In this document: positions 32,025-57,955 of the stretch, piece after piece
Position numbering within the stretch: position 1 is the first letter of the stretch
Layout: each line of letters opens with the position of its first letter
Origin: Mumia sp. ZJ1417
GTDB lineage: Bacteria; Actinomycetota; Actinomycetes; Propionibacteriales; Nocardioidaceae
Reading direction: 5' to 3'
DNA: 64,000 nucleotides
Assembly: GCF_014127285.1 (NCBI RefSeq)
Contig: NZ_CP059901.1
Span: forward strand, 3,658,001-3,722,000
Position numbers and translations under genes: made by a program
Notes under the pieces: generated by a model
The model's input: only the letters and a program-made list of their open reading frames with translations
Databases searched by the model: none
What the model was told of the DNA's origin: nothing

Positions 32025-32097
32025 CGCCCCACGATTTGCGCGGTTATCCACGTTGTTCGGCGTCGAACCGGTGGATGAGGCGTCAAATCGTGGGGCG
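32025..32097. repeat. Dispersed palindromic element, intergenic copy
   Basis: A 73-bp imperfect palindrome. Outer arms CGCCCCACGATTTG (32025-32038) and its exact complement (32084-32097) are continued inward by GGTTATCCAC opposite GTGGATGAGG, and the centre holds GTTCG-GCGT-CGAAC. A second element of almost equal size and with about 19 of 23 identical bases in the central half-arm (CGATT-TCCACGTT) lies at 57154-57225. The pair looks like one REP-like family. It separates the DUF885 promoter from the nrdB relic. Confidence 0.7.
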
Positions 32098-32127
32098 ACC
32101 TGGTTCGAAGGTGCCGACTTCTCCGTA

Positions 32128-32714
32128 CGGTCAACAAGGCGCTCGCGTTTGGCGTCTACCCGTACGTCAACGCCGCGGAGTGCCACCTCTATCTCGCGAA
32201 GCAGATGTGGGAGGAGGCGAACCACTGCATGTCGTTCGCGTATGCCTCTCACGTCGAGGTGCCGTCGATGGCGGCGAAGGAGGCGTTCGAGGTCCGTGAC
32301 ATCACGCGGATGACCGAGCAGACCCGCGCCCTCACGACCACCGCAGGCAAGCAGGACTTCGTCCGCAACCTCATCGCGTAAAACGTGATCCTGGAGGGCA
32401 CTGGATCGTGCGTGACGAGAGCCTGCGCCTGAAGTTCGGGATCAACCTCATCCTCACCGTGCTCGACGAGAACCCCGATGTGGCGACGCCTGAGTTCGCC
32501 GACGAGATCCGGCAGATGATCCTCGATGCGGTGGAGATGGAGGAGGCGTACAACCGCGACCTGCTGCCCGGCGGGATCCTCGGGCTCAATTCGAGCCGCA
32601 CTACCGCGCCGCGAATCAAGCGAAGTGGATGGCGACCGCGAACGACTCCTTGCAGCTGGTGAACTCTTCGAGTCGACCAACACCTCGTACGAGGTCAACG
32701 CGCGGGCGCACTGA
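32128..32714 (+). pseudogene. nrdB: Decayed ribonucleotide reductase small subunit (NrdB/R2) relic
   Basis: Conceptual fragments read in order VNKALAFGVYPYV, LYLAKQMWEEANHCMSFAY, then SHVEVPSMAAKEAFEVRDI, KQDFVRNLIA-stop-NVILEG, VRDESLRLKFGINLILTVLD, EIRQMILDAVEMEEAYNRDL, LPGGILGLN, FEPHYRAANQAKWMATANDS and FESTNTSYEVNARAH with a genuine stop. These follow the R2 family. Compared with intact R2 proteins I see at least three segment losses (after MSFAY, after LEG, after LGLN), a TAA in place of a Tyr codon near 32380, a frame change at the second join, and a one-base loss before FESTNT. The N-terminal half, including some iron ligands, is absent. No protein can be made. Confidence 0.85.
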
Positions 32715-32739
32715 TGAGTGCTGGGCGCACAGCACCACC

Positions 32740-32745
32740 TAGCCT
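32740..32745 (+). promoter_or_regulatory. -10 hexamer TAGCCT of the GNAT gene
   Basis: TAGCCT with 6 nt to ATG 32752 and no ribosome-binding site; it lies 25 bp after the end of the nrdB relic. Confidence 0.55.
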
Positions 32746-32751
32746 GACGGG

Positions 32752-33228
32752 ATGACCCCGCAGCTGCGTCCCGCCCGCACGGAGGACGCAGCGGCGGTCG
32801 CGGCGATCTGGCACGAAGGCTGGGGAGACGGGCACCTCGGCCAGGTCCCGGAGGCGCTGGTCGCCGCGCGGACACGGGCGTCGTTCGAGGAACGGTCGCT
32901 CGCGCGCGTGCCTGACACGACCGTCGCGGTGGTCGGGGACGACGTGGCGGGGTTCGTCATGGTCGCCGGCGACGAGGTCGAGCAGGTGTACGTCGACCGC
33001 GCGTTCCGTGGCAGCGACGTGGCATCGGCCCTGCTCGCGGAGGCCGAGCGTCGGGTCGCGGCGGCGGGAAACCCACAGGCGTGGCTCGCGGTGGCCCCGG
33101 GCAACGCGCGGGCGCGCCGCTTCTACGAGCGGTGCGGGTGGATCGACGCCGAAGGCTTCGCGTACGAGGCGGAGGTGGCCGGCGGGCGGTTCGCAGTGCT
33201 GTGCCGCCGGTACGTGAAGGACGTCTGA
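32752..33228 (+). CDS. GNAT family N-acetyltransferase
   Basis: 158 aa, one GNAT domain. The opening LRPARTEDAAAVAAIWHEGW is the alpha1 region, QVYVDRAFRGSDVASALLAEAE is the acetyl-CoA loop (somewhat degenerate, RGSDVA instead of RGxGxG/A) and APGNARARRFYERCGW is the typical C-terminal motif. The acceptor is unknown. Transcribed on its own from a leaderless promoter, 31 bp ahead of the MDMPI-like gene. Confidence 0.86.
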   Translation: MTPQLRPARTEDAAAVAAIWHEGWGDGHLGQVPEALVAARTRASFEERSLARVPDTTVAVVGDDVAGFVMVAGDEVEQVYVDRAFRGSDVASALLAEAERRVAAAGNPQAWLAVAPGNARARRFYERCGWIDAEGFAYEAEVAGGRFAVLCRRYVKDV

Positions 33229-33245
33229 GCTCCGCCCCGCACGCC

Positions 33246-33251
33246 TAGGAT
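33246..33251 (+). promoter_or_regulatory. -10 hexamer TAGGAT of the MDMPI-like gene
   Basis: TAGGAT with 8 nt to ATG 33260, suggesting separate leaderless transcription from the GNAT gene that ends at 33228. Confidence 0.5.
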
Positions 33252-33259
33252 CGCGTGTC

Positions 33260-33895
33260 ATGGATCCACGAGATGCCGCGTTCGTGACCGCCGCCCACAT
33301 CGCCGCTGCTCTCCTCACGCGGCCCGAGGTCGCAGCGAAGTGGGGCGAACCGAGCGCGTTGCCGAGGATGACGGTGGGGATGCTCGCGTGCCACCTCGGG
33401 CGGCAGACCGTCGCTGCCGGTGACCTCCTTGGGGTCGACGGCGCCACGTCACCGCTGCCGGACACGGCCGAGCACTACCGTCGTGCCGCGTGGGTGACCG
33501 CGACGAGCCTCGACGACCCCGCGCACGACCGCACGCGCGACGAGCAGGAGGCGGCCCTTGGCTTCGAAGCGCTTGAGGTCCGATGCGCTGCGGCGCTCGC
33601 GAACGTCGAGCGGCTCCTCGAGGACGGCGAGGTCGCTGACGTGGTCGCGATCCCGTGGCAGGGCTGGAGCCTGACGCGCTCCGACTTCCTGCTGACGCGG
33701 ATGCTCGAGATCGTCGTCCACACCGACGACCTCGCCCGCAGCATCGACCTGCCGACGCCTGAGTTCCCCGACGACGCCTATCTGCCGGTCGTCTATCTCC
33801 TCGTCCAGCTCGCCGCCGAGCGCCACGGGCAGGCGGCGCTCACCAGCGCGCTGACGCGGAGCGAGCGGATGCCGGAGGCGATCAGCGCGTTCTGA
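33260..33895 (+). CDS. Maleylpyruvate isomerase-type (MDMPI_N/DinB-like) mycothiol-dependent protein
   Basis: 211 aa. The four-helix DinB-like domain has LACHLGRQ (metal His), and LLTRMLEIVVHTDDLARS carries the HxxD-type motif that supplies the other metal ligands in the mycothiol-dependent family. Such proteins use mycothiol, the main thiol of actinobacteria, in isomerisation or detoxification. The specific reaction is unknown. The last 14 bp overlap the convergent DUF2809 gene. Confidence 0.84.
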   Translation: MDPRDAAFVTAAHIAAALLTRPEVAAKWGEPSALPRMTVGMLACHLGRQTVAAGDLLGVDGATSPLPDTAEHYRRAAWVTATSLDDPAHDRTRDEQEAALGFEALEVRCAAALANVERLLEDGEVADVVAIPWQGWSLTRSDFLLTRMLEIVVHTDDLARSIDLPTPEFPDDAYLPVVYLLVQLAAERHGQAALTSALTRSERMPEAISAF

Positions 33896-34256
33896 GCTGC
33901 CCGACAACGCTGCAGAGCACGCCGCCGACGGCCGCCCCTACGGCGTACCGAAGCAGGTCAGGCGCCCAGAACGTTGTCCCCAGCACGAGCCGTGCGGCTG
34001 GCACGTGCTCCGCCACCGCGACCGGGATGCCGGTGAGCTGGAAGAGCTCGACGGCGACGCACACCGCGAACCCGACGAGCGCAGCCACGGGCGGCGGCGT
34101 AGTTGGCCGGACCGCCACCACGAGCAAGACGACCAGGGTCGCGTAGAGCGCGTCACCGGCTGGTCCCGCAATCGGTGCGGGAAGGACGGCTCGTGCGGCC
34201 AGCCCAGCCGCGACCACACCGAAGATGGCGACGGACATCGCGGTTCGAGGACTCAT
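33882..34256 (-). CDS. DUF2809 family small membrane protein
   Basis: 124 aa with four hydrophobic segments; AVCVAVELFQLTGIP and WAPDLLRYAVGAAVGG are the conserved DUF2809 blocks. Role unknown. The 3' end overlaps the MDMPI-like gene by 14 bp on the other strand. ATG 34256 is preceded at 9 nt by TAACAT. Confidence 0.83.
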   Translation of the reverse strand: MSPRTAMSVAIFGVVAAGLAARAVLPAPIAGPAGDALYATLVVLLVVAVRPTTPPPVAALVGFAVCVAVELFQLTGIPVAVAEHVPAARLVLGTTFWAPDLLRYAVGAAVGGVLCSVVGQLRTR

Positions 34257-34265
34257 CGGGTCGAG

Positions 34266-34271
34266 ATGTTA
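34266..34271 (-). promoter_or_regulatory. -10 hexamer TAACAT of the DUF2809 gene
   Basis: Minus-strand TAACAT, 9 nt from ATG 34256, the longest spacing among the leaderless candidates here. Confidence 0.4.
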
Positions 34272-34300
34272 GGCGGGCCAGGGGTCGCGGCGCTTGTGCT

Positions 34301-34331
34301 TCGATCGGTGCTCCCCGGTGACACCGATCGA
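34301..34331 (-). terminator. Hairpin after the FhuF-like gene
   Basis: A perfect 10-bp stem TCGATCGGTG/CACCGATCGA around an 11-nt loop lies 13 bp downstream of the FhuF-like stop on the minus strand and upstream of the DUF2809 promoter. No T-tract follows. Confidence 0.55.
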
Positions 34332-34344
34332 CCGCACACGGGGC

Positions 34345-34998
34345 TCACTGGGGTTGGGTGAGGACGCAGTCGCCGCAGTAGCCGCCGCCCGGGACGCGGT
34401 AGTAGAGGCAGCACGACCTGCGTACGAACCTGCCTCGTACGACGTCACCGGTGCCGGCGAACGGGGCGCGGGCGAGAACCGCCGACGCGTACGTGGCGGC
34501 TGACGGCGCGAGCTGTGGATGCATGGAGCGGAGCGCGGCCACCGCTCCGAAGAGTGCCGACGTCGCGTTGCCCCACAGGACCGTGCGCGACAACGCGAAG
34601 CCCGTGGCGAACCGCTCGACGAGCGGCGTGAGCATCTCACCCGGGTCGACGGCACGCGCGTGCGGCTCAACCGCCAACGGCCACGGGCCGGTCTCGAACG
34701 GACGCCACCACGTCGCGTCGAGCGTCACTGGCGGTGCCGGCACGCCGAGCGCGGCGGCGCCAACCGCGGGCGAGAGCAGCCGTGAGAACAATCCGAGCGC
34801 CACCGTCGATGCGGCGACCCGCTCCTCGACGTCGGTCCCGCCGAGGGCCTCCCGCGTGGAGACGACCCGCTCCTCCAGCGAGCCCGGCGTGAGCAGGTCC
34901 GTGAGCGGTTGCCACCCCGCGGCCGCTGGGTCGGCCGGGAGTGCGTCGACCGCGAAGTACGGGCCGAGCGACGACACGCCCCCCGTACGAAAGCTCAC
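34345..34998 (-). CDS. FhuF-like (2Fe-2S) ferric-siderophore reductase family protein
   Basis: 217 aa from GTG 34998. The C-terminus CCLYYRVPGGGYCGDC is the FhuF-type 2Fe-2S motif (C-C-x10-C-x2-C); the rest is the helical FhuF domain. FhuF proteins reduce ferric siderophores in the cytosol. GTG 34998 overlaps the methyltransferase stop as GTGA, so the two are co-translated. No siderophore importer or Fur-type site is evident nearby. Confidence 0.85.
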   Translation of the reverse strand: MSFRTGGVSSLGPYFAVDALPADPAAAGWQPLTDLLTPGSLEERVVSTREALGGTDVEERVAASTVALGLFSRLLSPAVGAAALGVPAPPVTLDATWWRPFETGPWPLAVEPHARAVDPGEMLTPLVERFATGFALSRTVLWGNATSALFGAVAALRSMHPQLAPSAATYASAVLARAPFAGTGDVVRGRFVRRSCCLYYRVPGGGYCGDCVLTQPQ

Positions 34999-35585
34999 TG
35001 CGGCACGCGCAGCAGCGTGACCGCGAAGTCCGCCGTGTCGTCGTACGGCACGAGGTCCCACGTCGCGAACCGCTGCTCGACCTCCAGCCCGACGGCTTCC
35101 GCGTCCGCGTCGAGCGCTTCGACCCCGTACGGCCGGTCGGTCCGGAAGCCGAGCACGATCCGGCCGCCGGGGCGTATGTGCGCCCGCAGCCGCTCGAGCA
35201 CGGCGCGCTCCGAACCGGGCGCGAGGAACACCATGACATTGCCGGCAACGACGGCGAGGTCGAACGGGTCACCGGGGAGGTCGAGCGTGGCGAGATCGGC
35301 GACCTGCCACGTCGGACCCGGATGATCGTGCGCGGCGGCCTCGATGAGCGCCGGGTCGACGTCGACGCCGACCACGTCGTGGCCTGCCGCGTACAGGCGC
35401 GACCCCACGCGGCCCGGGCCGCACCCGCCGTCGAGGATCCGGGAACCTGGCGGGACGAGCGCGTTCACGAGCCGCGCCTCACCGCCGAGGTCCGCACCCT
35501 CGCGCTCCATCGTGCGGAAGCGCTCGATGTACCACTGCGAGTGGCCGTCGGAGGTCTCGCTGAACCAGCGCGGTGTCGAGGTCAT
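34995..35585 (-). CDS. Class I SAM-dependent methyltransferase
   Basis: 196 aa. Motif I ILDGGCGPGRVG binds SAM, VVGVDVDPALIEAA is motif II and DLAVVAGNVMVFL motif IV. The substrate is unknown. ATG 35585 has GGAGG a few bases upstream; the frame runs further but the upstream part is unlike the family. Co-translation with the FhuF-like gene is an odd pairing that could suggest modification of a metallophore or small metabolite, which is speculation. Confidence 0.85.
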   Translation of the reverse strand: MTSTPRWFSETSDGHSQWYIERFRTMEREGADLGGEARLVNALVPPGSRILDGGCGPGRVGSRLYAAGHDVVGVDVDPALIEAAAHDHPGPTWQVADLATLDLPGDPFDLAVVAGNVMVFLAPGSERAVLERLRAHIRPGGRIVLGFRTDRPYGVEALDADAEAVGLEVEQRFATWDLVPYDDTADFAVTLLRVPQ

Positions 35586-35705
35586 GCCTCCATCCTGCCT
35601 CGCGCGCTCGACCCACCGCCGCGCGCGTCGGTTGCTCGGTGGCCACGCGAGTCGGGCGCGGTGACCACACACGCGCCAGAGCTCCGCCGGCGCCACGGCG
35701 CTCGC

Positions 35706-36299
35706 TCAGCCGGCCTCCGGCGGGAGGAGCAACGAGCGGATCGTGGCGGTGAACGCGTGCACGTCGATGGTCGGGTCGAGCGAACGCTGCGCCCCCATGC
35801 CGATCCCGAGGCTCAGGAGCGCCAGCGCGACCTGGTCGGCGGGCAGCACGAGCCGCATCCCCGTACGGCGCCCGATCTCGAGCAGCAGTGCCGCGATCGC
35901 CTCGCGGATCTGGACGTGCCGGGCGGCGAGCTCGGTCGCCACGAACGGGCTCGTCCGCACCACCGCGGCGAACTCGACCTCCAACGCGGTCCAACGCGGC
36001 TGCCCGAGCCGTACCTTCAGCCAGCCCTCGAGGCCGTTGATCGCGTCGTCGTACGTGGTAGCGACCCCCACGGCCTCCACGACCTCGGCCACCATCTCGC
36101 GGTGGATCTCGTCCAGGACGGCGAGCCCGAGCTCCTCCTTGCTCTTGAAGTTGGAGTAGACCGCCCCCTTGGAGAAGCCGGCCTCGAGCGCCACCCGATC
36201 CAGGCTCGTCGCACCGTAGCCGTCGTCGAGGAAGAGGGTGCGCGCCGTCGCCACCAGCGCCGTGCGCGTCATCGCCTGACGTTCTGCCCGAGTGGACAT
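35706..36299 (-). CDS. TetR family transcriptional regulator
   Basis: 197 aa. N-terminal HTH TSLDRVALEAGFSKGAVYSNFKSKEEL (about 31-57, read in two parts: recognition helix is KGAVYSNF) followed by a ligand-binding helical domain (YDDAINGLEGWL). It is divergent from the BVMO-P450 operon; a 9+5+9 palindrome lies between them and abuts the BVMO start, so repression of that operon is likely. The inducer is probably the hydrophobic substrate of the pathway. Confidence 0.92.
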   Translation of the reverse strand: MSTRAERQAMTRTALVATARTLFLDDGYGATSLDRVALEAGFSKGAVYSNFKSKEELGLAVLDEIHREMVAEVVEAVGVATTYDDAINGLEGWLKVRLGQPRWTALEVEFAAVVRTSPFVATELAARHVQIREAIAALLLEIGRRTGMRLVLPADQVALALLSLGIGMGAQRSLDPTIDVHAFTATIRSLLLPPEAG

Positions 36300-36349
36300 C
36301 GAACCCCTCTCGCGAAAAAAGAATATGACATCAAGAGTGTTGCATCCAG

Positions 36350-36372
36350 CTCAGATACCATTAGTATCTGAG
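36350..36372. promoter_or_regulatory. Probable TetR operator: 9-5-9 perfect palindrome
   Basis: CTCAGATAC (36350-36358), spacer CATTA, GTATCTGAG (36364-36372), perfect arms. It ends 5 bp before the BVMO ATG, so a bound repressor would cover the transcription and translation start. It is AT-richer than its surroundings. Confidence 0.75.
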
Positions 36373-36377
36373 CCGTG

Positions 36378-37880
36378 ATGACCCAAGATATCGTGATCAT
36401 CGGCACCGGCTTCTCCGGTATGGGCATGGCCATGAAGCTCGAAGAGGCGGGGCGCGACGACTTCGTCATCCTCGAGAAGGCCGACGACGTGGGCGGCACC
36501 TGGCGGGACAACACCTATCCCGGCTGCGAGTGCGACGTCCCGAGCCACATGTACTCGTTCTCGTACGAGCTCAACCCGCACTGGTCCAAGTCGTTCTCCG
36601 GCCAGGCCGAGATCTGGGACTACATGCGCAAGGTCGCCGACGAGCGCGGCATCCGCAAGCGCATCCACTTCGGCAAGGAGGTCGTCGGCGCCCACTGGGA
36701 CGAAGCCCGCGAGCGCTGGACGATCAACACCGCCGACGGCGACGTGTACGACGCGCGCGTGCTCGTCGCGGGAGTCGGCGGGCTCCACATCCCCAACATC
36801 CCGGAGATCGAGGGCGCCGACACTTTCGCGGGAGCACGTTTCCACTCCGCGGAGTGGGACCACTCGGTCGATCTCACCGGCAAGCGGATCGCCGTGATCG
36901 GCACCGGGGCGAGTGCGGTCCAGTTCGTGCCGATCATCGCCGAGCAGGCATCACACCTGACGCTCTTTCAGCGCACCCCCCCGTGGGTCCTGCCGAAGAA
37001 CGACCGCCCGATCGGCCCGGTCAGGCAGGCGATCTTCGAGAAGGTCCCCGGCGCCAACCGTGTGTACCGCGATGCTCTCTACTGGGTGCTCGAGTCGCGC
37101 GCCATCACGTTCAACGGCCATGTCCCGGCGTTCCTGAAGATCGCCGAGAAGGTCGTCCACGCCCACATCGCCCGGCAGGTCGAGGACCCGGCGCTCCGCG
37201 AGAAGCTCACCCCCGACTACCGCCTGGGCTGCAAGCGCGTGCTCCAGTCGAACGACTACTACAAGGCGTTCAACCGCGACGACGTGGCGCTCGAGACGAC
37301 GGGCATCGCCAAGATCGTGCCCGAAGGCGTCGTCGACCGCGACGGGGTGCTCCACGAGGCCGACGTCATCGTGTACGGGACGGGCTTCCACGTCGTCGAC
37401 GCCTTCGATCACCTCAACTTCACCGGCCGCGGCGGCACCGACCTGGGTCGGCTGTTCGCCGCGCAGGGCGTCGAGACGTACCTCGGCATCACCATCCACC
37501 AGTTCCCCAACCTCTTTTTCATGCTCGGCCCCAACACCGCGCTCGGTCACAACTCGGTGGTCTTCATGATCGAGCAGCAGGCGAAGTACATCGTCCGCTC
37601 GCTCGACGAGATGGACCGCCAGCGCGCCACGACGATGGAGCCGACCAAGCTCGCCCAGGACGCGTACAACGCCGACATCCAGGCGCGGGTCGAGAAGGGC
37701 ATCTGGACGCAGGGCGGCTGCACGTCGTGGTACCTCGACGCAGCTGGCAAAAACCGGACGATCTGGCCGAAGTTCACGTTCCAGTACTGGTGGGACACCC
37801 GCATGGTGCGCGACCAGGACTACGTGTTCACCCGCGCCCGACGCACGGAGAAGGCGGACCTGGAGAACGCGTCGGCATGA
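36378..37880 (+). CDS. Baeyer-Villiger-type flavin monooxygenase
   Basis: 500 aa from ATG 36378 (GTG 36375 is adjacent). The FAD Rossmann motif GTGFSG (9-14), the BVMO fingerprint FAGARFHSAEWD (150-161, FxGxxxHxxxW-D variant) and the NADPH motif GTGASA are present, with WRDNTYPG typical of type I BVMOs. It inserts oxygen into ketones or oxidises related hydrophobic compounds. It overlaps the P450 gene by ATGA. The substrate is not deducible; steroid, terpene or cyclic ketone are possibilities. Confidence 0.93.
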   Translation: MTQDIVIIGTGFSGMGMAMKLEEAGRDDFVILEKADDVGGTWRDNTYPGCECDVPSHMYSFSYELNPHWSKSFSGQAEIWDYMRKVADERGIRKRIHFGKEVVGAHWDEARERWTINTADGDVYDARVLVAGVGGLHIPNIPEIEGADTFAGARFHSAEWDHSVDLTGKRIAVIGTGASAVQFVPIIAEQASHLTLFQRTPPWVLPKNDRPIGPVRQAIFEKVPGANRVYRDALYWVLESRAITFNGHVPAFLKIAEKVVHAHIARQVEDPALREKLTPDYRLGCKRVLQSNDYYKAFNRDDVALETTGIAKIVPEGVVDRDGVLHEADVIVYGTGFHVVDAFDHLNFTGRGGTDLGRLFAAQGVETYLGITIHQFPNLFFMLGPNTALGHNSVVFMIEQQAKYIVRSLDEMDRQRATTMEPTKLAQDAYNADIQARVEKGIWTQGGCTSWYLDAAGKNRTIWPKFTFQYWWDTRMVRDQDYVFTRARRTEKADLENASA

Positions 37881-39166
37881 CCCTCCCACCCGGACCGCGC
37901 TGGCCTTCCGTCGCCCAGACGGTGGCGTTCATCGCGTTCCGCAACCCGCTCCTCGACCATCTCTCGCGCACGTACGGCGACTCGTTCACCCTGCGGATCC
38001 TCCCCGGCCCGCGCACGATCGTCGGGATCAGCAGGCCCGACGAGATCAAGCAGGTGTTCGCCGGCAGGTCTGAGGACTTCCACGCCGGCGAGGGCAACGA
38101 GATTCTCCGCCCCGTCATGGGAGACCACTCGGTGCTGCTCACCGACGAGAGCGAGCACCTGCGCGCCCGGAAGCTGCTGATGCCCGCGTTCAACGGCGCG
38201 TCGCTGCGCGGCTACCGCGGACTCGTCGAGGTCATCGCCAAGAGGGAAGTCGACCGCTGGCACGACGGTCAGCGCCTCGTCACGCACACGCGGATGAACG
38301 CGCTCACGCTCGAGATCATCCTCCAGGTCGTCTTCGGGGTGACCGACGAGGAACGCCTCTCCACGCTGCGACCACGGGTGATGCGGATGGTGGAGGTGTC
38401 GCCGCTGCTGCTGCTCGGCTGGGCCTACCCGAAGCTGCACCGCTTCGGCCCCTGGAAGGCATACTTCGGCAACCAGGCCGCCGTCGACCGGCTCCTGTAC
38501 GACGAGATCCGCGACCGGCGCGGCGTCAGCGACCTCGCCGACCGTACGGACGTGCTGTCGCTGCTGCTGCAGGTCGGGGCGACCAGCGAGGACGAGCCGC
38601 TGACCGACGCCGAACTGCGCGACCAGCTCGTCACACTGCTCCTCGCGGGCCACGAGACGACAGCGTCCGCACTCTCGTGGACGCTGCACGAGCTCGGCGC
38701 CAACCCCGACGTCCAGGCCGAGGCGCTGCGCGCGGCGGACCAGGGTGACGGCGACTTCCTCGAGGCGTGCCTCAAGGAAGCGATGCGGCTCCACCCGATC
38801 ATCGACCAGGTCGCACGCCGCGTCACCTCGCCGCAGAAGATCGGCCGCTGGTCGTTGCCGACCGGCGCCGTTGTCACGCCGTCGATTGCACTCGCCCACG
38901 CGTCGAGCGACAGCTTCGGCGACCCGCAGCGCTACCGTCCTCGCCGCTTCCTCGACGAGACGATCGCGCCGAACACGTGGCTGCCGTTCGGCGGCGGCGT
39001 ACGACGCTGCATCGGCGCCGGGTTCTCGCTGATGGAGGGGACGGTGGCGCTCAAGGAGGTCCTCACGCGCTACCGCGTCTCCGTCGACGGCGAAGAGGTC
39101 TCGATGCTGCGCAACATCACCCACGTCCCGAAGCACAAGGCCGTCGTGACGCTGCACGGGCGCTGA
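37877..39166 (+). CDS. Cytochrome P450
   Basis: 429 aa. I-helix AGHETT (257-262), ExxR at 301-304 (EAMR) and heme loop FGGGVRRCIG with Cys378 are intact. The Pro-rich start PPGPRWP and the overall layout recall the CYP135/CYP138-like group of actinobacteria, a tentative assignment. ATG 37877 overlaps the BVMO stop, so both oxygenases should be made together. Redox partners (ferredoxin, reductase) are not encoded beside it. Confidence 0.94.
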   Translation: MTLPPGPRWPSVAQTVAFIAFRNPLLDHLSRTYGDSFTLRILPGPRTIVGISRPDEIKQVFAGRSEDFHAGEGNEILRPVMGDHSVLLTDESEHLRARKLLMPAFNGASLRGYRGLVEVIAKREVDRWHDGQRLVTHTRMNALTLEIILQVVFGVTDEERLSTLRPRVMRMVEVSPLLLLGWAYPKLHRFGPWKAYFGNQAAVDRLLYDEIRDRRGVSDLADRTDVLSLLLQVGATSEDEPLTDAELRDQLVTLLLAGHETTASALSWTLHELGANPDVQAEALRAADQGDGDFLEACLKEAMRLHPIIDQVARRVTSPQKIGRWSLPTGAVVTPSIALAHASSDSFGDPQRYRPRRFLDETIAPNTWLPFGGGVRRCIGAGFSLMEGTVALKEVLTRYRVSVDGEEVSMLRNITHVPKHKAVVTLHGR

Positions 39167-39190
39167 CTCAGGCCGTGGACTCGATGACAA

Positions 39191-39213
39191 CTAAGCGCAC
39201 GCTTAGGTAGGCT
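39191..39213 (+). promoter_or_regulatory. Palindromic operator and -10 before the quinone oxidoreductase
   Basis: CTAAGCG-CA-CGCTTAG (39191-39206) is a perfect palindrome. It is followed directly by TAGGCT (39208-39213), 6 nt before ATG 39220. An operator touching the -10 element suggests repression. The arms differ from the TetR-BVMO operator, so another regulator is likely. Confidence 0.65.
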
Positions 39214-39219
39214 CCGAGG

Positions 39220-48565: not shown

Positions 48566-50187
48566 GGGCGCTCCCCGAGGGCCGTACGGACGTCGCGGAC
48601 GGTCAGCCACGGCTCTCCGAGGACCTTCGTGACCTGCGGGGCGAACGCCGGCGAGGTCGCCAGGACCTCGCGGACGTCACCGGCCGCGATGACCTCACCG
48701 TCGGCCATCACGGCGGCGCGATCCGCGACGGCGGCGACGAACTCGACGTCGTGCGTCGCGACCAGGACGGCACCGCCGCCCGCCGCGAGGTCGCGCAGGA
48801 TCGTCGCGAGGGCGTCCTTGGCCGCGTAGTCAAGACCGCGCGTCGGCTCGTCGAGCAGCATCACGCGTGGCGCCGCGGTGAGCTGGACGGCGAGGACGAG
48901 CGCGAGCTTCTGGCCCTCGGAGAGGTCGCGCGGGTTGGCCGCGGGGTCGATCGTGCCCGCGAGGCGGGTGAGGAGCGCGGTGCACGTGCCGTCGTCGGCA
49001 CCCGCCTCGGCATCCGCCGCCGCGCACTCGGACGCCACCGACTCGAGGTAGAGAAGGTCACTCGCGGTCTGCGGGACCAGGCCGATCCGGCGCCGCGCCT
49101 GCGTACGGGACAGCCGGGCAGGATCCTTCCCCGCGACCTGGACGTCACCGCCGTGCCGCGATCCCGATCCCTGCAAGGCCCAGAGCAGCGTGGACTTGCC
49201 CGAGCCGTTGCGCCCCATCAGTGCCGTGACCGAACCCGCGGGAAGGTCGAGGTCCACCCCTCGTACGGCGAGCAGCGGCCCGTACCGCACCTCGACCCCG
49301 CGCGCCGTCAGCAGCGGCCCCGCCGGTCCCGTCCCCGTTGTGTGCACAGATCGGGGACGGAACGGGGGCGGGAGCTCGGCGAGCTCCTTGCGCAGGGTCT
49401 TGGAGGTGCGGCGGGCCTCTCGTACGGTCAGCGGGAGCGGGTCCCACCCGGCAAAGCGGCCGAGATCGACGATCGGCGGCGCGATCGGGCTCGTCGCCAG
49501 GATCGCCGCGGGCGCACCGGCGGTCACCGAGCCGTCGGTCCCCACGTACACGAGCACGTCCGCGAACGGCACCACCCGCTCGAGCCGGTGCTCGGCGAGC
49601 ACGACGGTGGTCCCCAGGTCGTGCACGAGGCGCGCCAACGTCGCGAGGACGTCCTCCGCCGACGTCGGGTCGAGCGCGGACGTCGGCTCGTCGAGCACGA
49701 GCACGGGCGGGTGCATCGTGAGCACCGCGCCGATCGCGACCCGCTGCTGCTGGCCTCCCGACAGCGACCGAAGCGACCGCGCCCGCAGGTCGGCGATGCC
49801 GAGCAGGTCCAACGCCTCCTCGACGCGGCGCCGCATCGCCTGCGGGTCGACGCCGAGCTGCTCCATCCCGTACGCGAGCTCCTCCTCCACCGTGTCGGTG
49901 ACGAATCCCGCGAGCGGGTCCTGCCCGACCCAGCCGACGGTCGCGGCGAGCTCGCGCGGCGGGTGGTCCTGTGTCCGCAGCCCGGCCACGGTCACGGTCC
50001 CGTCGAGATTGCCACCCGTGAAGTGCGGGACGAGTCCGTTGAGCAGCCCGAGCAGCGACGACTTGCCCGCACCCGTCGGCCCTGTGACGACGACGAGCTC
50101 GCCCTCGTCGACGAGCAGATCGACGTCGCGCAGCACCGGACGCGTCGCACCGTCGTACGTGACGGTGACGCTTTCGATCTCGATCAC
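48562..50187 (-). CDS. ECF transporter ATPase with two fused ABC domains
   Basis: 541 aa from GTG 50187. Domain 1: Walker A GPTGAGKSS, signature LSGGQQQR, Walker B LVLDEPTSALDP. Domain 2: Walker A GRNGSGKST, signature-like LSEGQKLA, Walker B VMLLDEPTRGLD. A single-chain ECF A/A' pair of this kind drives uptake with the T and S components. The signature of domain 2 is variant (SEGQK instead of SGGQ). GTG overlaps the T-component stop. Confidence 0.92.
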   Translation of the reverse strand: MIEIESVTVTYDGATRPVLRDVDLLVDEGELVVVTGPTGAGKSSLLGLLNGLVPHFTGGNLDGTVTVAGLRTQDHPPRELAATVGWVGQDPLAGFVTDTVEEELAYGMEQLGVDPQAMRRRVEEALDLLGIADLRARSLRSLSGGQQQRVAIGAVLTMHPPVLVLDEPTSALDPTSAEDVLATLARLVHDLGTTVVLAEHRLERVVPFADVLVYVGTDGSVTAGAPAAILATSPIAPPIVDLGRFAGWDPLPLTVREARRTSKTLRKELAELPPPFRPRSVHTTGTGPAGPLLTARGVEVRYGPLLAVRGVDLDLPAGSVTALMGRNGSGKSTLLWALQGSGSRHGGDVQVAGKDPARLSRTQARRRIGLVPQTASDLLYLESVASECAAADAEAGADDGTCTALLTRLAGTIDPAANPRDLSEGQKLALVLAVQLTAAPRVMLLDEPTRGLDYAAKDALATILRDLAAGGGAVLVATHDVEFVAAVADRAAVMADGEVIAAGDVREVLATSPAFAPQVTKVLGEPWLTVRDVRTALGERP

Positions 50188-51266: not shown

Positions 51267-51269
51267 GGC

Positions 51270-51968: not shown

Positions 51969-51984
51969 GCGAGCGGTTCCTTCC

Positions 51985-52157
51985 TGCTGCGACGGGCGGG
52001 GCCCGTTGTCCTCGGCAGCACACGGAGGTGGACTCCGGATCGCGGAGCGGATCGCGGAGCTGGCAGCAGGTGCTCCGGCTCGCCTCTTAGGGGAGGCCTA
52101 CGGTTGCGGGTCAGCGCCGGACTTCGACCGGCTTTCCCTTTTGCCGCACTCAGCCTA
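51985..52157 (-). promoter_or_regulatory. Cobalamin riboswitch with its promoter
   Basis: On the minus strand the order is -10 TAGGCT (52152-52157), then GGGAAAGCCGGTCGAAG, TCCGGCGCTGACCCGCAAC, and the B12 box GAGCCGGAGCACCTGCTGCC (about 52063-52083), matching the conserved core and box of AdoCbl riboswitches. Between box and ATG 51968 an ACGGG/CCCGT hairpin flanked by GCTGC/GCAGC could act as expression platform next to the GGAAGGAA ribosome-binding site, consistent with translational control. Boundaries are approximate. Confidence 0.88.
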
Positions 52158-52162
52158 ACCGG

Positions 52163-52765
52163 TCAGCCGGGGAGGCGGTGCACCGTCCAGTCGTCGCCTT
52201 CACGCCTGGCCTCGCACCTCGTGCTCGGTCCGTCGTCGTCGCCAGCCCAGAACGTCAGGCGCTGCGGAACGAGGTGGAAGCAGAGCCATGTCGGCGGTGG
52301 CACGAGGACGGGATGGGCCTCGTCGAAGCGGCGCCACTCCTCCTGGCGTTCCTCGCGGGGCAGCCGGGCAAGGCGCGGATCGTTGAGCCACGCCAGCAGC
52401 TGGAGGTCACGCGGACATGCCTCGAACAGCCGCGCCGCCTCGTCGTCCGTCGCCCGCTCGGTCGCGCCGGCGACCACCAGCTGCCTCGCTTCCTCCGGCC
52501 ACACGAGGACGCCGACGGCGTACGGGTAGGCCGTGAGCTGGGCGACCTTGCGGGCGCGGCTGTCGCTGTGGAACGAGATCCGCTCGCCGTTGCACCCGTT
52601 GACCATGACCGTACGGGCGTCGGGCGCGCCGTCGATCTCGCGCGTGGCGAGCGTCATCAGCGGTGGCTCCGCGCCCGGGACGGGACCGAGCCACGAGGCC
52701 AGCAGGTCGAGCGGATCGGGGAGGTCCTCCCCCGGCTCCGGGACGTGCCGATCACGCGCGCTCAC
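52163..52765 (-). CDS. Pyridoxamine 5'-phosphate oxidase family protein
   Basis: 200 aa. DARTVMVNG..ISFHSDSRARKVAQL is the FMN-binding strand pair of PNPOx, PPPTWLCFHLVPQRLTFW replaces the classical PPxWGGYRVxPxxIEFW, and RREGDDWTVHRLPG is the C-terminal Arg-x-Leu-like end. The Trp-Gly-Gly-Tyr-Arg stretch that binds PLP is changed, so it may be a divergent PdxH or a flavin reductase relative. GTG 52765 is set by TAGTGT 7 nt upstream. Confidence 0.8.
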   Translation of the reverse strand: MSARDRHVPEPGEDLPDPLDLLASWLGPVPGAEPPLMTLATREIDGAPDARTVMVNGCNGERISFHSDSRARKVAQLTAYPYAVGVLVWPEEARQLVVAGATERATDDEAARLFEACPRDLQLLAWLNDPRLARLPREERQEEWRRFDEAHPVLVPPPTWLCFHLVPQRLTFWAGDDDGPSTRCEARREGDDWTVHRLPG

Positions 52766-53065
52766 GGGGCCGACACTAGCGGCCTCACCAGGGCTGACCC
52801 GGACGGCCGGTTGATGTCGCCGTGACTATCCCCCTCTCGGCGCGCTCTTACGCGTGCGAGAACCTCGTCTTCGTCCTCGTCGTGCCGGTGTCGATGGGGC
52901 TCCCCCGGCGCTAGTCGTCGTGCTCGGGCTCACGACGATCCTCGTGCTCACCCGGCGACGTCCGGCGTCGCTCGGCCGGCTCACACCGCTCCGCATCGCC
53001 ATCGACGCAGGCCCGACACCAAGCGCCACTGGCCGCAGCAGCCTCCGTACCGGTAGAACTCGTCC
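52766..53065. other. 300-bp intergenic region, no convincing gene
   Basis: The divergent region holds the PNPOx-like promoter. A short frame from 52822 ending at a TAG near 52914 and another frame through 52854-53069 together spell a hydrophobic stretch (VFVLVVPVSMGL, then LVVVLGLTTILVLT). This could be a frameshifted remnant of a small membrane protein. Neither frame has a good start or known family. Confidence 0.4.
52773..52778 (-). promoter_or_regulatory. -10 hexamer TAGTGT of the PNPOx-like gene
   Basis: Minus-strand TAGTGT with 7 nt to GTG 52765; no ribosome-binding site between. Confidence 0.55.
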
Positions 53066-54931
53066 ATGACGCTCCCGCCTCGTACCGCCGCCACGCTCGT
53101 CGTCGCCGTCGGGGTCTGGGTCCTCGGCGACCTCGTCCGCGTGTGGGCGCCCTCGCTGATCACGATCTTCGGACAGGCCGCGTCGACGCCGCCCGAGCTG
53201 ATGGGCGCGTACGCGCTCGGATGCGTCGCGGTCGGCGCGGTGGTCGCGCTTCTCGCGCGGCGCCACGCCACGGGCGTGGCCGCGGGCGCGCTGGCCGTCG
53301 CGCTCGTGTGCCGGACCGCCCTGCAGCTGACCGACGGCGGGCAGGCTCAGCTCGTCGCCGCCTCGCTCGGGATCGCCGCGGGCATCGCGTGGCTCTCGCT
53401 GGCGGCAACCTCGTACGGGGACGTGCTCGTCGTCGGCCTCGCGGCAGGCCTCTCGCTCGGGACGGTGACGCATGCGGCCCTCGGGACGTGGGGTGCGGTC
53501 TGGCGCGGTGACGCGTGGGGCTGGGTGCTGCTCGTCGTCCAGGTCGTGGGCGCCGCGGTGGCATGGCGGCTCGCGCGCGACCACCGGTCGAGGGCAGCGG
53601 CACGTCGTACGGCCTGGCTGGTGATGCCCGGCCTCCTCCTCGCCGGCATCGTCTTCGCGAACGCGGGCCGCGCGTCGGCGGTCGCGGGGACGGCCGGGCT
53701 GGTCGTCGTCGCGCTCGCATCGGTTGCCGCAGTAGCGACAGCGGCCGTGCGGCCGCGCCGCGCGACGGCGTGGGCGGCGGCGGTGATCCTCGTCGCGGCG
53801 AGCGCCGTGGCGCTGCTCGTGACCGCCGACGTCGACGGCATTCCGGCGGTGTCGCCGACGTGGACTCTGGCGGCGTACGCCGTCGGGCTTCCCGCGCTCA
53901 CCCACCTGTGGGCCGCCTCCGACCACGGCCGACCGGCGCGTGCCGCGACCCTGGCGCTCGGCGGGCTCGTGTGGGTGGCGCTGCTGTTCGTCTACTACGC
54001 CGGGTACGACCTCGGCTACCGTGCGGACATCGTCGTCGTCCTCGCAGCGGCAGTGCTCGCCGTCGTCGCGGCGACCGGGGCCCCGCGCGCGGCCGGCACC
54101 GACCGTACGGGGGCGGCGCGCGTGTCGCCCGTCCTCCTGGGCGGCCTCGGCCTCCTCGCCGGCACCGTCGCGTGGCTCGGCCCCGGGCTCACTGTCCCGG
54201 CGCTCGACGACGTCGCGGGCCCCGACCTGCCCGCCTCGGGGAGCGTGCGCGTGACCGCGTACAACCTGCGCATGGGCTACGGCATGGACGGCACGTTCCG
54301 CCCCGACCTCGTCGCCGAGACCCTGCGGTCGAGCGAGGTCGCGCTGCTCAGCGAGGTCGACCGCGGGTGGTATCTCAACGGCGGCCAGGACGAGCTCGCG
54401 ATCCTCGAGCGGATGCTCGACCGCGACGCCGTGTTCGCGCCCGCGGCCGACCCGGTGTGGGGCGACGCGGTGCTCACAGCGCTGCCGGTCGAGGAGTCGG
54501 TCGGGACCCCGCTGCCGTCGCACGGCGCGGTGACCGGAGCCCAGGCGTTGTCCGTACGGCTCGACCTCGCGGGGGCACCGACGTGGTTCGTGTCGACGCA
54601 CCTGCAGCCGAACGACGGCGATGAAGGCGTCGGCCCGCAGACCGAGGATCTCGCCGCGATGCTCCGGACCCGGCTCGCCGACGGTCTCCCGCTCGTCCTC
54701 GGCGGTGACCTCAACACGCAGCCGGGCAGCACCTCGTACGCGCTGCTTGTGGGCCTCGGGCTCGTCGACGCCCTCGACGGCGCAGACCCGACCTCGCCGG
54801 CGGACCGGCCGACGGCACGCATCGACCACCTGCTCGTCAGCCCCGACCTCGCTCCGTCCGCGCCGCGCGTCGGCGGCTCGCAGGCCTCCGACCACCTACC
54901 CGCCTCGGTGACGCTCACGCCACGCGGCTGA
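53066..54931 (+). CDS. Polytopic membrane protein with C-terminal endonuclease/exonuclease/phosphatase domain
   Basis: 621 aa. The first 390 residues hold ten or more hydrophobic segments; the last 230 form an EEP domain: RVTAYNLRMGYG (Asn), LLSEVDRG (metal Glu), STHLQPND, LGGDLNTQPGS and the final SDHLPASVTL (catalytic His). The domain should face the outside if the helix count is even. Such fusions may cleave phosphodiesters of lipids or nucleic acids. ATG 53066 follows a weak TAGAAC. Confidence 0.87.
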   Translation: MTLPPRTAATLVVAVGVWVLGDLVRVWAPSLITIFGQAASTPPELMGAYALGCVAVGAVVALLARRHATGVAAGALAVALVCRTALQLTDGGQAQLVAASLGIAAGIAWLSLAATSYGDVLVVGLAAGLSLGTVTHAALGTWGAVWRGDAWGWVLLVVQVVGAAVAWRLARDHRSRAAARRTAWLVMPGLLLAGIVFANAGRASAVAGTAGLVVVALASVAAVATAAVRPRRATAWAAAVILVAASAVALLVTADVDGIPAVSPTWTLAAYAVGLPALTHLWAASDHGRPARAATLALGGLVWVALLFVYYAGYDLGYRADIVVVLAAAVLAVVAATGAPRAAGTDRTGAARVSPVLLGGLGLLAGTVAWLGPGLTVPALDDVAGPDLPASGSVRVTAYNLRMGYGMDGTFRPDLVAETLRSSEVALLSEVDRGWYLNGGQDELAILERMLDRDAVFAPAADPVWGDAVLTALPVEESVGTPLPSHGAVTGAQALSVRLDLAGAPTWFVSTHLQPNDGDEGVGPQTEDLAAMLRTRLADGLPLVLGGDLNTQPGSTSYALLVGLGLVDALDGADPTSPADRPTARIDHLLVSPDLAPSAPRVGGSQASDHLPASVTLTPRG

Positions 54932-54937
54932 CCCGCG

Positions 54938-54943
54938 TACCGT
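54938..54943 (+). promoter_or_regulatory. -10 hexamer TACCGT of the DUF1440-like gene
   Basis: TACCGT with 6 nt to ATG 54950, 7 bp after the previous stop. Confidence 0.5.
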
Positions 54944-54949
54944 GGCCGG

Positions 54950-55480
54950 ATGAGCGCTCACCGGATGCTCCGCGGCGCGGCCGTCGGCGCCCTCGCGTCG
55001 CTGCCCGCGTCGTACGTCAAGGCCGTGACCGAGCCTGCGCTGCAGCGCGCCGCGGAGCAGGTGGTCCCGCCGCAGGTGTGGCAGAAGCGCCTCGTCGGGA
55101 CTGACCCGAGCGGCCACCCGGAGAACATGCCGCCGGCCGTCGTCGCCGCGGAGGTCGCCGAGCTGCGCGACGGGACCGTGCTCGACACCGCCCAGAAGGT
55201 CCGTGCCAGCACGGCGATCCACTACGTGTTCGGTGCCGTGGCCGGCGCCGCGTACGGGGCGCTTGCCGCGCGCTTCCCCGGCGTGACGAGCGGGGGCGGC
55301 GCGCCTGCGGGGATCGCGCTCTATGCAGCCACCCACGGGACGGGGCTGCCGGCGGCGGGGATCCAGGAGCCACCGTGGACGCTCCCGGCGTCGGCCGTGC
55401 TGTGGGAGAGCGGCAGCCACGCCGTCTATGGGGTGACGCTGGAGGTGTCTCGCCGGCTGCTCGACCGGGTCCTGCCGTAA
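54950..55480 (+). CDS. DUF1440/YagU-like membrane protein
   Basis: 176 aa. GAAVGALASLPASYVKAVTEPALQ, IHYVFGAVAGAAYGALAA and SHAVYGVTLEVSRRLL match the DUF1440 (YagU) pattern of an inner-membrane protein with three or four segments. Role unknown; YagU is linked to acid resistance in E. coli. It ends 1 bp before the convergent cobL stop. Confidence 0.75.
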   Translation: MSAHRMLRGAAVGALASLPASYVKAVTEPALQRAAEQVVPPQVWQKRLVGTDPSGHPENMPPAVVAAEVAELRDGTVLDTAQKVRASTAIHYVFGAVAGAAYGALAARFPGVTSGGGAPAGIALYAATHGTGLPAAGIQEPPWTLPASAVLWESGSHAVYGVTLEVSRRLLDRVLP

Positions 55481-55481
55481 G

Positions 55482-56690
55482 TCAGCGCACCGCGCTCCAC
55501 TGCATGACGGGCCGGGACGGCTTCCAGGCGATCGAGCCGCCGCCCGAGAAGACGGCGTCCACGGCGATCCGGACCAGCTCACCGCCGTGCTTGCGGAAGC
55601 GATCGATCAGCGCGGCCTCGTCGTCGAGCGTGACGGCGTGCACGACGAGACGTCCGCCCGGGCGCAGCACGCTCCAGGCGGCTTCGACGAGCGCGGTGTC
55701 GGAGCCACGGGCACCGAGAAAGACAGCATCGGGTGCCGCCAGGGCGTCGAGGGCCTCGGGCAGCGTTCCCTCGACGACGCGCAGCTCGGGAACGCCGAGG
55801 TCGGCCGCCGACTCCTTCGTGCGGACGAGGCCTGCGCGGTCGGGCTCGACGACGACGCCCGAGGCCAGCGGCTCGGCGCGCACCCACTCGATCGCGACCG
55901 AGGCGGCTCCCGGTCCGAGCCCCCAGAGCAGGTCGCCGGCGGCAGGAGCGAGGCGCGCCAGCGCGGCCGTACGGACGTCGCGCGGCACGACCGCGCCTCC
56001 CTCTCCAAAGGCGCTGTCCGGCAGACCCGGGACGCTCGACATCGCGGAACGGCGGGACGCGTCGGCGACGCAGTCGAGGCAGACCACGTTGAGCTCGGAG
56101 GCGACCCGGACGTTCCACGACGCCGCCGTCGCGTCGGCACGCGACTCGGTGAGCCCGCCGAGGTCTCCGAGCACGGTCATCCTCGTGTCCCCGTACCCCT
56201 GGGCGACCAGCAGCGCGGCCACCGACGAGGGCGTGCCGCCGTCGTTCGACAGCACCACCAGCCTGCGCCCGGGCGCGAGGTGCGGGACGAGCTGGCGGAC
56301 GTCGCGGCCGACGAGCGAGACCAGCGAGGTCTCCTCGTACGACCAGTGCATGCGTGCGCGTGCGAGCGCCTCCGACGACACGGTCGGCACGATCTCGACA
56401 TACTCGGCGCCGAGCATCCGGACGAGCGTCGTCCCGATCCCGGCGACGAGGGGGTCGCCGGACGAGAGGACGACGACGCGCTTGCCCTCGTGCTCGTCGA
56501 GCAGAGCCGGCAGCACCTCGTCGAGCGGGTGCGGCCACTCGACCCGGACCTGCCACCACGCCCACGGAACGGTCTCGAGGTGTCGCTTGCCGCCCATGAC
56601 CACCTCGGCCTCACGGACGAGCCGGCGCGACTCCATGGCGAGACCCTCCCAGCCGTCCGCGCCCATGCCTACGACCGTGATCCGCTGCAT
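55482..56690 (-). CDS. cobL: Precorrin-6Y C5,15-methyltransferase (decarboxylating), CbiE-CbiT fusion
   Basis: 402 aa. N-terminal tetrapyrrole methylase (CbiE): ITVVGMGADGWEGL and VVLSSGDPLVAGIG; C-terminal SAM methyltransferase (CbiT): LLWGLGPGAASVAIEWVR as motif I, with DAVFLGARGSD. Together they methylate C5 and C15 and decarboxylate the C12 acetate of precorrin-6. The fusion is usual in aerobic cobalamin producers and actinobacteria. ATG 56690 is divergent from cobA. Confidence 0.94.
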   Translation of the reverse strand: MQRITVVGMGADGWEGLAMESRRLVREAEVVMGGKRHLETVPWAWWQVRVEWPHPLDEVLPALLDEHEGKRVVVLSSGDPLVAGIGTTLVRMLGAEYVEIVPTVSSEALARARMHWSYEETSLVSLVGRDVRQLVPHLAPGRRLVVLSNDGGTPSSVAALLVAQGYGDTRMTVLGDLGGLTESRADATAASWNVRVASELNVVCLDCVADASRRSAMSSVPGLPDSAFGEGGAVVPRDVRTAALARLAPAAGDLLWGLGPGAASVAIEWVRAEPLASGVVVEPDRAGLVRTKESAADLGVPELRVVEGTLPEALDALAAPDAVFLGARGSDTALVEAAWSVLRPGGRLVVHAVTLDDEAALIDRFRKHGGELVRIAVDAVFSGGGSIAWKPSRPVMQWSAVR

Positions 56691-56698
56691 GGGTGCAG

Positions 56699-56704
56699 AC
56701 GCTA
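56699..56704 (-). promoter_or_regulatory. -10 hexamer TAGCGT of cobL
   Basis: Minus-strand TAGCGT, 8 nt from ATG 56690. Confidence 0.45.
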
Positions 56705-56842
56705 TCCGTCCGAGCGGGCAGAGCCCAAGCCCGGGCGGAGTGTGATCGAGCAGATTGTCCGCGATGCGGCGGGTACGACCCGTGCGGGAATTCCGCGCCT
56801 ACCATCGAGGACTCATCCGCGAACGAGAGGACGACCGCGCTG

Positions 56843-57955
56843 ATGGCACGCGCCGAGGGGTTCCGAGCCACCCTTCCCGTCTCCGGCCGCCGCGTCCTGG
56901 TGGTCGGCGGCGACACCGAAGCGCTCACGCACGTCGCTGCCCTGCGCGACGGCGGCGCCCGCGTCACGGTCGTCGCGCCGCAAACCGTGCAGTCGATCAG
57001 CGACCTCGCGGACCGGGGCATCCTGACGTGGCACGCGCGGGCGTACGAGCCCTCCGACGTCACCGGTCACGACCTCGTCGTCCTCGCGACCGGCGATCCC
57101 CAGCTCGACGCCCGGGTCTCCTCCGACGCCTCCGAGACCGGCACCTGGTGCTCCGTCCCCGATTCGGGCAGTTCTCCACGTTCTGACGGGGGCGAAAGCG
57201 TGGAGAACCGCCCGAATCGCGGACGGGTCGTGCTCGTGGGCGGCGGGCCGGGCGACCCGGGGCTGATCACGGTGGCGGGTCTGGAGGCCGTACGCTCGGC
57301 CGACGTCGTCGTCACGGACCGGCTGGCGCCCCTCGGCGTCCTGCACGGCCTCGGCTGCGAGATCGTCGACGTCGGCAAGATCCCTCGCGGGCGCACCACC
57401 CCGCAGGAGGAGATCAACCGGATCCTCGTCGCGCACGCCGCGGCCGGCAAGCGTGTCGTACGGCTCAAGGGCGGCGACACCTTCGTCTTCGGGCGGGGCG
57501 GCGAGGAGCTCGAGGCGTGCGTGGCCGCCGGCATCCCCGTCGACGTCATCCCCGGCGTCACGTCCGCGATCGCCGGTCCGGCACTGGCCGGCATCCCGGT
57601 CACGCACCGCGGGCTGAGCCAGGGCTTCACCGTGGTCTCCGGACACGTGCCGCCGGGAGACCCGCGCTCGACCCTCGACTGGGCAGCGCTCGCCCGCTCC
57701 GGCACGGACCTGGTCCTGCTCATGGCCGTGGCGACGCTCCCGGCGATCACCGCGACACTGATCACCGAGGGCCTCGACGCCGCGACCCCCGCCGCGACGG
57801 TTGCCGACGCGACGCTGCCGACGCAGCGCGTGGTCCGCGCGGACCTGGCCACGATCGCCGAGCGCATCGCCGAGGCCTGCATCGCCTCTCCGGCGATCAC
57901 GGTGATCGGCAAGGTCGCGGGCTTCGACCCCGGCTCCGAGACCACCGGCGTTTGA
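56843..57955 (+). CDS. cobA: Uroporphyrinogen-III C-methyltransferase with reduced SirC-like N-domain
   Basis: 370 aa from ATG 56843. Residues 14-103 form a Rossmann domain like precorrin-2 dehydrogenase (GRRVLVVGGDTEA, VVLATGDPQLDA); residues 128-370 are SUMT: VVLVGGGPGDPGLIT, RLKGGDTFVFGRGGEE, VIPGVTSAIAGPA. It methylates uro'gen III at C2 and C7 to precorrin-2, the entry to corrin and siroheme. The stretch joining the domains (about 104-128) is encoded by a 72-bp palindromic element, and the second half of the usual SirC domain is missing. The start fits AGAGGA 12 nt upstream; the open frame begins earlier at 56693. Confidence 0.93.
   Translation: MARAEGFRATLPVSGRRVLVVGGDTEALTHVAALRDGGARVTVVAPQTVQSISDLADRGILTWHARAYEPSDVTGHDLVVLATGDPQLDARVSSDASETGTWCSVPDSGSSPRSDGGESVENRPNRGRVVLVGGGPGDPGLITVAGLEAVRSADVVVTDRLAPLGVLHGLGCEIVDVGKIPRGRTTPQEEINRILVAHAAAGKRVVRLKGGDTFVFGRGGEELEACVAAGIPVDVIPGVTSAIAGPALAGIPVTHRGLSQGFTVVSGHVPPGDPRSTLDWAALARSGTDLVLLMAVATLPAITATLITEGLDAATPAATVADATLPTQRVVRADLATIAERIAEACIASPAITVIGKVAGFDPGSETTGV
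57154..57225. repeat. Dispersed palindromic element, copy inserted in cobA
   Basis: Two 27-bp arms (57154-57180 and 57199-57225) pair with two mismatches around an 18-nt loop. The half-arm CGATTCGGGCAGTTCTCCAC continues with GTT and matches the first copy (32031 onward) at about 19 of 23 bases. The element is read through in frame, giving roughly residues 104-128 of CobA (SVPDSGSSPRSDGGESVENR and a few more). Confidence 0.75.

Follow-up and report, generated by a model that had tools for sequence, protein, structure and literature searches.

Repetitive extragenic palindromic (REP) sequences are short, dispersed palindromes with a preference for gene ends, and the enzyme gene that belongs to them is flanked by palindromes of its own; Rickettsia palindromic elements (RPEs) are carried in frame within protein genes. 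REP palindromes are given as 20-40 bp long, and GTAG or CGTC are named as their tags (PMC3733652). Palindromes, which may or may not include those described below, have already been counted in this phylum, since a table of PMC12306157 lists three Actinomycetota genomes in a scan for REP sequences. Another enzyme relevant to the comparison, the homing endonuclease I-Bth0305I, is reported in a review to dimerise on a target of nearly 60 bp (PMC3943268). The subject of the present study is a pair of palindromes (copies 1 and 2, Table 1) in a stretch of 64,000 nucleotides of the actinobacterium Mumia sp. ZJ1417 (the window, G000:C1:3658001-3722000 of a 4.19-Mb single-contig genome), for which a first-pass annotation had proposed a dispersed, REP-like element that can sit inside genes. 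We put the probability at roughly 60% that these palindromes represent either the mobile ends or reduced copies of an element of about 1.1 kb, in which a nuclease gene is enclosed by two palindromes. Such an element would represent a REP/RAYT-like mobile system (RAYT, REP-associated tyrosine transposase) built on an enzyme of the homing-endonuclease type, with movement presumably brought about by the nuclease.

Like those of REP/RAYT systems, the palindromes are short, occur in many dispersed copies mainly outside genes, prefer gene ends, correspond to a particular enzyme and flank the gene of that enzyme. However, the Y1/HUH transposase, which is the defining feature of REP/RAYT, was not detected: PF01797, the Y1 transposase family, had no match in the ZJ1417 genome at E <= 0.001, and 5 of 14 control genomes were positive. 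The linked Y1/RAYT transposase suggested by the first-pass annotation is therefore not supported and was rejected as the partner; its place is taken, in each palindrome family found, by a nuclease with an AbiEi-like and a Vsr/EDxHD-like part. Two further differences are the length of the palindromes, ~65-75 bp with an own one for each nuclease lineage as opposed to the 20-40 bp given for REP above, and the presence of several independent enzyme-palindrome families in one genome.

Within the window, copy 2 (28-nt arms, 93% complementary) ranks first and copy 1 (27-nt arms, 78% complementary) fourth among 36 inverted-repeat pairs. As annotated, one of them is intergenic and the other translated, and they have a half-arm in common (CGATTTGCGCGGTTATCCACGTT / CGATTCGGGCAGTTCTCCACGTT, 19 of 23 positions identical by eye). 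Without mismatches, the half-arm motif occurs at three places, every one within the two copies; with up to three mismatches it matched five times compared to a mean of 4.26 in shuffled sequence, which is no excess, and the half-arm alone thus proves nothing. A DNA search of the ZJ1417 genome gave related copies. In an alignment of 11 copies with a 28-pair stem, 85.7% of the cells pair and 14 of the 28 pairs have changed on both sides; none of 500 shuffles reached the value for pairing or that for covariation, and the compensatory arm changes that had been looked for are thus present. Searching the same genome with a covariance model gave 62 strand matches at no fewer than 31 places, a count that is a lower bound as 150 of 3309 first-look candidates were scored, and 27 of these at least 31 places are solo copies of the first two families described below. 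The model recovered both window copies (E 7.5e-14 and 2.7e-13), which belonged to its training set, and also matched in the five other Mumia genomes and, in all, in 39 of 149 sampled genomes of the family Nocardioidaceae. The idea of many genomic copies was accordingly borne out, in the form of a dispersed REP-like superfamily. What the palindromes all share is only part of a motif, with a log-odds score of 395 for an ungapped model built on 94 loci versus 225-232 for shuffled arms, and at least two classes, GATTTG-like and GGTGAG-like, can be distinguished among these loci by eye. A known RNA family was rejected, as Rfam gave no match in the window at gathering thresholds, and a chance origin was rejected by the covariation shuffles together with the shuffled and within-locus controls for the nuclease flanks.

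Pairs of copies about 1 kb apart were found at 792 kb, at 3230 kb and in three other Mumia genomes, and each pair encloses a single gene for a protein of ~300 amino acids with an AbiEi-like N-terminus and a DUF559/Vsr-like nuclease at the C-terminus. DUF559 (PF04480) matched above its gathering cut-off in 5 of 7 proteins (25-31 bits versus 20.6) and did not match the distant paralogues L083 and L084; the MTES_1575 endonuclease model matched below its cut-off. A likeness to AbiE toxin-antitoxin systems is seen in 5 of 6 proteins, in which PADLOC models of AbiEi matched residues ~2-180 (best E 5e-8 to 1e-18), while Pfam AbiEi_4 matched one protein only, below its cut-off. Residues E179, D212, E223, D239 and R242 are 99-100% conserved across 136 proteins, and the first four are putative catalytic residues, presumably of an EDxHD site. 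This conservation and a ratio of nonsynonymous to synonymous substitution rates of 0.14-0.34 in four nuclease pairs indicate that the nuclease is under purifying selection. The first compact match of the predicted structure, at rank 5, is the catalytic domain of I-Bth0305I (3r3p; TM-score, the template modelling score, 0.80 on the target, root-mean-square deviation (rmsd) 3.0, probability 1.00, E 0.017), with the endonuclease-like protein 3hrl further down, and the sequence profile matched 3hrl, 3r3p and Vsr chains weakly (E 0.5-5.7). The predicted catalytic fold and the conserved acidic residues may resemble those of I-Bth0305I, Vsr and DUF559 proteins. In contrast to that of I-Bth0305I, the nuclease gene was found in no intron, intein or split gene; it is bounded by palindromes, its product has an AbiEi-like N-terminus, and dispersed gene-less copies exist. 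The nuclease was found in 117 of 120 sampled genomes of the family (E 1e-20) and in 58 of 198 genomes of the phylum (E 1e-10).

The association between palindromes and nuclease is strong. It was assessed on 153 nuclease loci, which were narrowed to 151 with a near-full match, 150 with both flanks, 143 after removal of identical flanks and 136 after removal of near duplicates, a set that consists mostly of high-scoring matches and is no random draw. A palindrome at threshold was detected in 85 left and 83 right flanks of the 143 loci, as against 0 and 1 of 143 shuffled flanks, and in 7 of 286 control segments, the 430 bp at either end of those loci; both flanks carried one in 57 loci, one flank in 54 and neither in 32. 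Left and right flanks matched each other (score >=20) in 116 of 136 loci versus 149 of 18360 mismatched pairs, many of which join related loci, and the own pair ranked first in 90 of 136. Among 109 sampled Nocardioidaceae loci from 42 genomes, the own flanks matched in 101. Of 276 pairs made up of flanks of different nuclease genes in the same genome, a single one matched, and it comes from two close paralogues. In 5356 pairs from 104 loci, a palindrome is shared by 20 of 39 pairs with proteins at least 70% identical and by 0 of 3756 pairs below 40%, and palindrome similarity tracks protein similarity (Mantel r 0.42 versus a maximum of 0.10 in 999 permutations). The ZJ1417 genome itself has eight nuclease matches, including the query, of which five have same-family palindromes on both sides, the palindrome being different in each of the five; the other three yielded no flanking pair at the thresholds applied, the own flank pair of L085 still being the best match with a score of 28. 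The distant paralogues L084 (G000:C1:1090570) and L083 (G000:C1:2260426), at ~30% identity, are likewise flanked by palindromes, whose sequences differ from the others.

Where both palindromes of a locus match (52 loci), the layout is regular: the median distance is 84 bp from the end of the left palindrome to the start codon and 2 bp from the stop codon to the right palindrome, and the whole element has a median length of 1141 bp. A palindrome ahead of the start codon and an AbiEi-like N-terminus in most of the proteins would be in line with a regulatory or addiction system, in which the protein binds the palindromes as operators and solo copies serve as decoys or as protecting sites that restrain the nuclease. 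We consider such a system highly improbable, as it is not evident how the second palindrome, at the stop codon, would act as an operator, and the spread to many sites would be left unexplained.

Palindrome family and nuclease correspond one to one in the three families of this genome that were searched. When 37 solo copies were scored against all five flanking pairs, the best scores were 16.5-55 and the next-best at most 13.5, which places each copy in one clear family: 10 belong to the nuclease at 792 kb, 17 to that at 3230 kb and 10 to that at 1486 kb, with the doubtful truncated copy at 49321 excluded. The palindrome of this third nuclease is of other sequence and was found at 12 places, including 10 that are not next to the gene. 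Copy 1 scores 25.0 with the 792-kb family and 12.5 with the runner-up, and copy 2 scores 38.0 with the 3230-kb family and 10.0 with the runner-up. The first-pass view of two related copies therefore holds at the level of a superfamily, but not of one family, since each copy matches a different nuclease gene; a single palindrome family was rejected, as the solo copies are split among the flank families of separate nucleases. A similar arrangement exists in another class of the phylum, where one genome (G258) carries its nuclease palindrome at 11 places, two of which flank the gene; five other genomes searched with this palindrome had it at no place.

With genes called by a simple GC-frame rule, the first two families have 16 of their 27 solo copies no more than 20 bp from a called stop codon, compared to 9.6% of random windows (binomial p 2e-10); a called start is as near in 4 of 27, compared to 7.0%. 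Several solo copies are located between convergent genes. This clustering and the very stable predicted hairpins might also be explained by a host function, with the hairpins acting as bidirectional terminators or stabilisers of mRNA ends and the nuclease being a domesticated protein whose gene is insulated by hairpins. Such a role would leave unexplained why a family-specific sequence stands on both sides of each nuclease, why copies occur in frame and why sites are empty in relatives, and we regard it as improbable; use of the palindromes as terminators may be secondary. The in-frame copies number five of the 27 and are translated in the cobA linker, a RodZ-like linker, the middle of a Pyr_redox_2 protein and the C-terminal tails of an aromatic amino acid lyase and an amidohydrolase, so the annotated ability to sit inside genes is confirmed. 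A sixth apparent case, before a DXP reductoisomerase domain, probably precedes the real start of the gene. The copies in the cobA and RodZ-like linkers and the Pyr_redox_2 protein are reminiscent of RPEs, from which the present palindromes differ in that a cognate nuclease gene was identified and most copies were found at gene ends. In the Pyr_redox_2 protein (L030, G000:C1:2510579), the palindrome forms a 25-residue insert in a frame that is otherwise open.

Orthologous sites in Mumia genomes occur in different states. The 3' end of meaB carries the full element in ZJ1417 and G057 and, in the opposite orientation, in G049; a solo palindrome of the first type is present in G038 (by eye), a short unrelated palindrome in G064 and none in G021. 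Of six Mumia genomes, two (ZJ1417 and G021) have the cobA copy, which is thus older than the split between them, yet not general; in the other four, which do not have it, the linker is variable, so that insertion and replacement are indistinguishable. The gene beside copy 1 has orthologues in all five relatives; four of these lack a palindrome upstream, and the fifth, in G049, has a different one. Clean empty sites for copy 1 are those of G021 and G038, since only these keep the same upstream neighbour: here, both neighbour genes lie side by side without the palindrome and without the decayed fragment that adjoins it in ZJ1417, and palindrome and fragment may have arrived together. G057 and G064 also have no palindrome at this orthologue, but other neighbours. 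In G021, the sites that align with the copies at 3723395 and 3746080 are empty. Plain vertical descent of both copies, which had been named as the alternative to exclude, was rejected on this patchy presence; what stands of it is that the cobA copy is shared with G021, the copy being absent from 4 of 6 genomes and the site of copy 1 lacking a palindrome in 4 of 5 relatives. In G049 (L245 1403-1466 and 3166-3225), the neighbour gene of copy 1 is situated between two first-family-like palindromes, and palindromes can therefore bracket an ordinary gene.

The meaB site, which holds a solo palindrome or the full element in different genomes, might alternatively reflect homing, in that otherwise dispersed, pre-existing palindromes would be the homing sites of a nuclease whose gene invades them and ends up between two copies. 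That the predicted nuclease fold is nearest to a homing endonuclease and that a long target is reported for this enzyme type speak for this explanation. On the other hand, 37 solo copies beside cognate nucleases would mean many breaks per genome, the solo families track the nuclease families, which argues for spread by a nuclease-tied agent, and sites that are empty in relatives indicate that the palindromes themselves arrive. We therefore hold homing to be unlikely and prefer the mobile palindrome - gene - palindrome element. For such an element, it might be envisaged that the enzyme, probably dimeric, binds the palindrome through its AbiEi-like N-terminal part, that the C-terminal Vsr/EDxHD-like nuclease opens the DNA at a target or at an extruded hairpin, and that the palindrome, with or without the gene, would be copied into the break by repair. 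Recombination between the flanking palindromes could then delete the gene, leaving a solo palindrome, or invert it, which would give the states observed at meaB. Free cutting of the intact duplex palindrome is unlikely because 10-17 solo copies coexist with each conserved enzyme, which more likely acts on hairpins, on single strands or on separate target sites. By analogy, a target like that of I-Bth0305I, the closest enzyme whose biochemistry is known, would suit a dyad of 65-75 bp.

Several points weigh against this reading. Transposition, binding and cleavage by the nuclease are as yet proposals made from sequence. The predicted nuclease structure has a middling mean pLDDT (predicted local distance difference test) of 73, with residues 64-122 poor, Foldseek gave no match to the PDB at E <= 0.001, and ranks 1-4 are mitoribosomal chains with an rmsd of 14-17 A. 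No clear left-right match was obtained in 20 of the 136 loci, the own pair ranked first in 17 of 27 loci from distant parts of the phylum and failed to do so in 10, and 140 of the 198 phylum genomes gave no nuclease match. The orientation of the left copy relative to the right one follows no rule (of the 52 loci, 27 are direct, 23 inverted and 2 equal). A solo copy in G038 has no cognate among three distinct nuclease loci looked at in that genome and may be a relic, and the clustering at stop codons fits a terminator role as well. Finally, no target-site duplication was recognised at two empty sites aligned with G021, where the sequences have diverged. The system shares with insertion sequences and miniature inverted-repeat transposable elements (MITEs) the occurrence of a full element together with small gene-less copies; it differs from them by ends that are complete hairpins and no simple terminal inverted repeats, and by target duplication being unseen at these two sites.

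Taken more broadly, we lean slightly towards the view that self-spreading hairpin elements occur across Actinomycetota, in each of which a nuclease of AbiEi-like plus Vsr/EDxHD type mobilises a palindrome private to it. They would be an equivalent of REP/RAYT that relies on an unrelated enzyme, and would provide about a hundred enzyme-palindrome pairs whose specificity can be read. In actinobacteria, small mobile elements of this kind appear to be undescribed. Among the top matches listed from the open-licence literature, with subscription papers mostly outside this scope, no paper was found that ties palindromes to DUF559 or Vsr-like nucleases, and none of 14 open-licence papers that mention DUF559 is about repeats as judged by title or the start of the abstract. 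A group of DUF559-type proteins of unknown function would gain a concrete DNA partner and a testable job, and the findings suggest that palindrome-plus-enzyme repeat systems need not rely on an HUH transposase. The families may also serve as natural enzyme-site pairs for the study of changing DNA recognition, and would explain some in-frame inserts and gene-end hairpins in these genomes.

Table 1. Palindromes, genes and fragments discussed; positions refer to the window unless preceded by G000:C1.
Feature	Position	Strand	Remarks
Palindrome copy 1	32025..32097	.	intergenic; 792-kb nuclease family; inverted-repeat list, covariance model
Palindrome copy 2	57153..57226	.	translated, linker of CysG/CobA-type gene; 3230-kb nuclease family
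CysG/CobA-type open reading frame carrying copy 2 in frame	56693..57955	+	Pfam NAD_binding_7 + TP_methylase
Nuclease gene of copy 1 family	G000:C1:792151-793053		
Nuclease gene of copy 2 family	G000:C1:3230770-3231687		
Neighbour gene of copy 1	30334..31998	-	orthologues in 6/6 Mumia genomes
Decayed fragment adjoining copy 1	32127..32715	+	bounds approximate, by eye
Gene	32752..33228	+	directly adjoins orthologue of 30334-31998 in G021 and G038
Possible truncated third element	49321..49366	.	outer arm GTCCCCG..CGGGGAC, like 57153 family

Some minor features of the window may be added. The possible third element was not recovered by the covariance model and has family scores of 13.0 versus 12.5, too low to assign it; it is perhaps an internally deleted copy. 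Copy 2 falls between the NAD_binding_7 and TP_methylase domains of its frame. Copy 1 is located 26 nt upstream of the start codon of its neighbour gene, which is presumably DUF885-like. The decayed fragment on the other side presumably corresponds to the 3' part of a ribonucleotide reductase beta gene, and the gene that follows it is presumably acetyltransferase-like.

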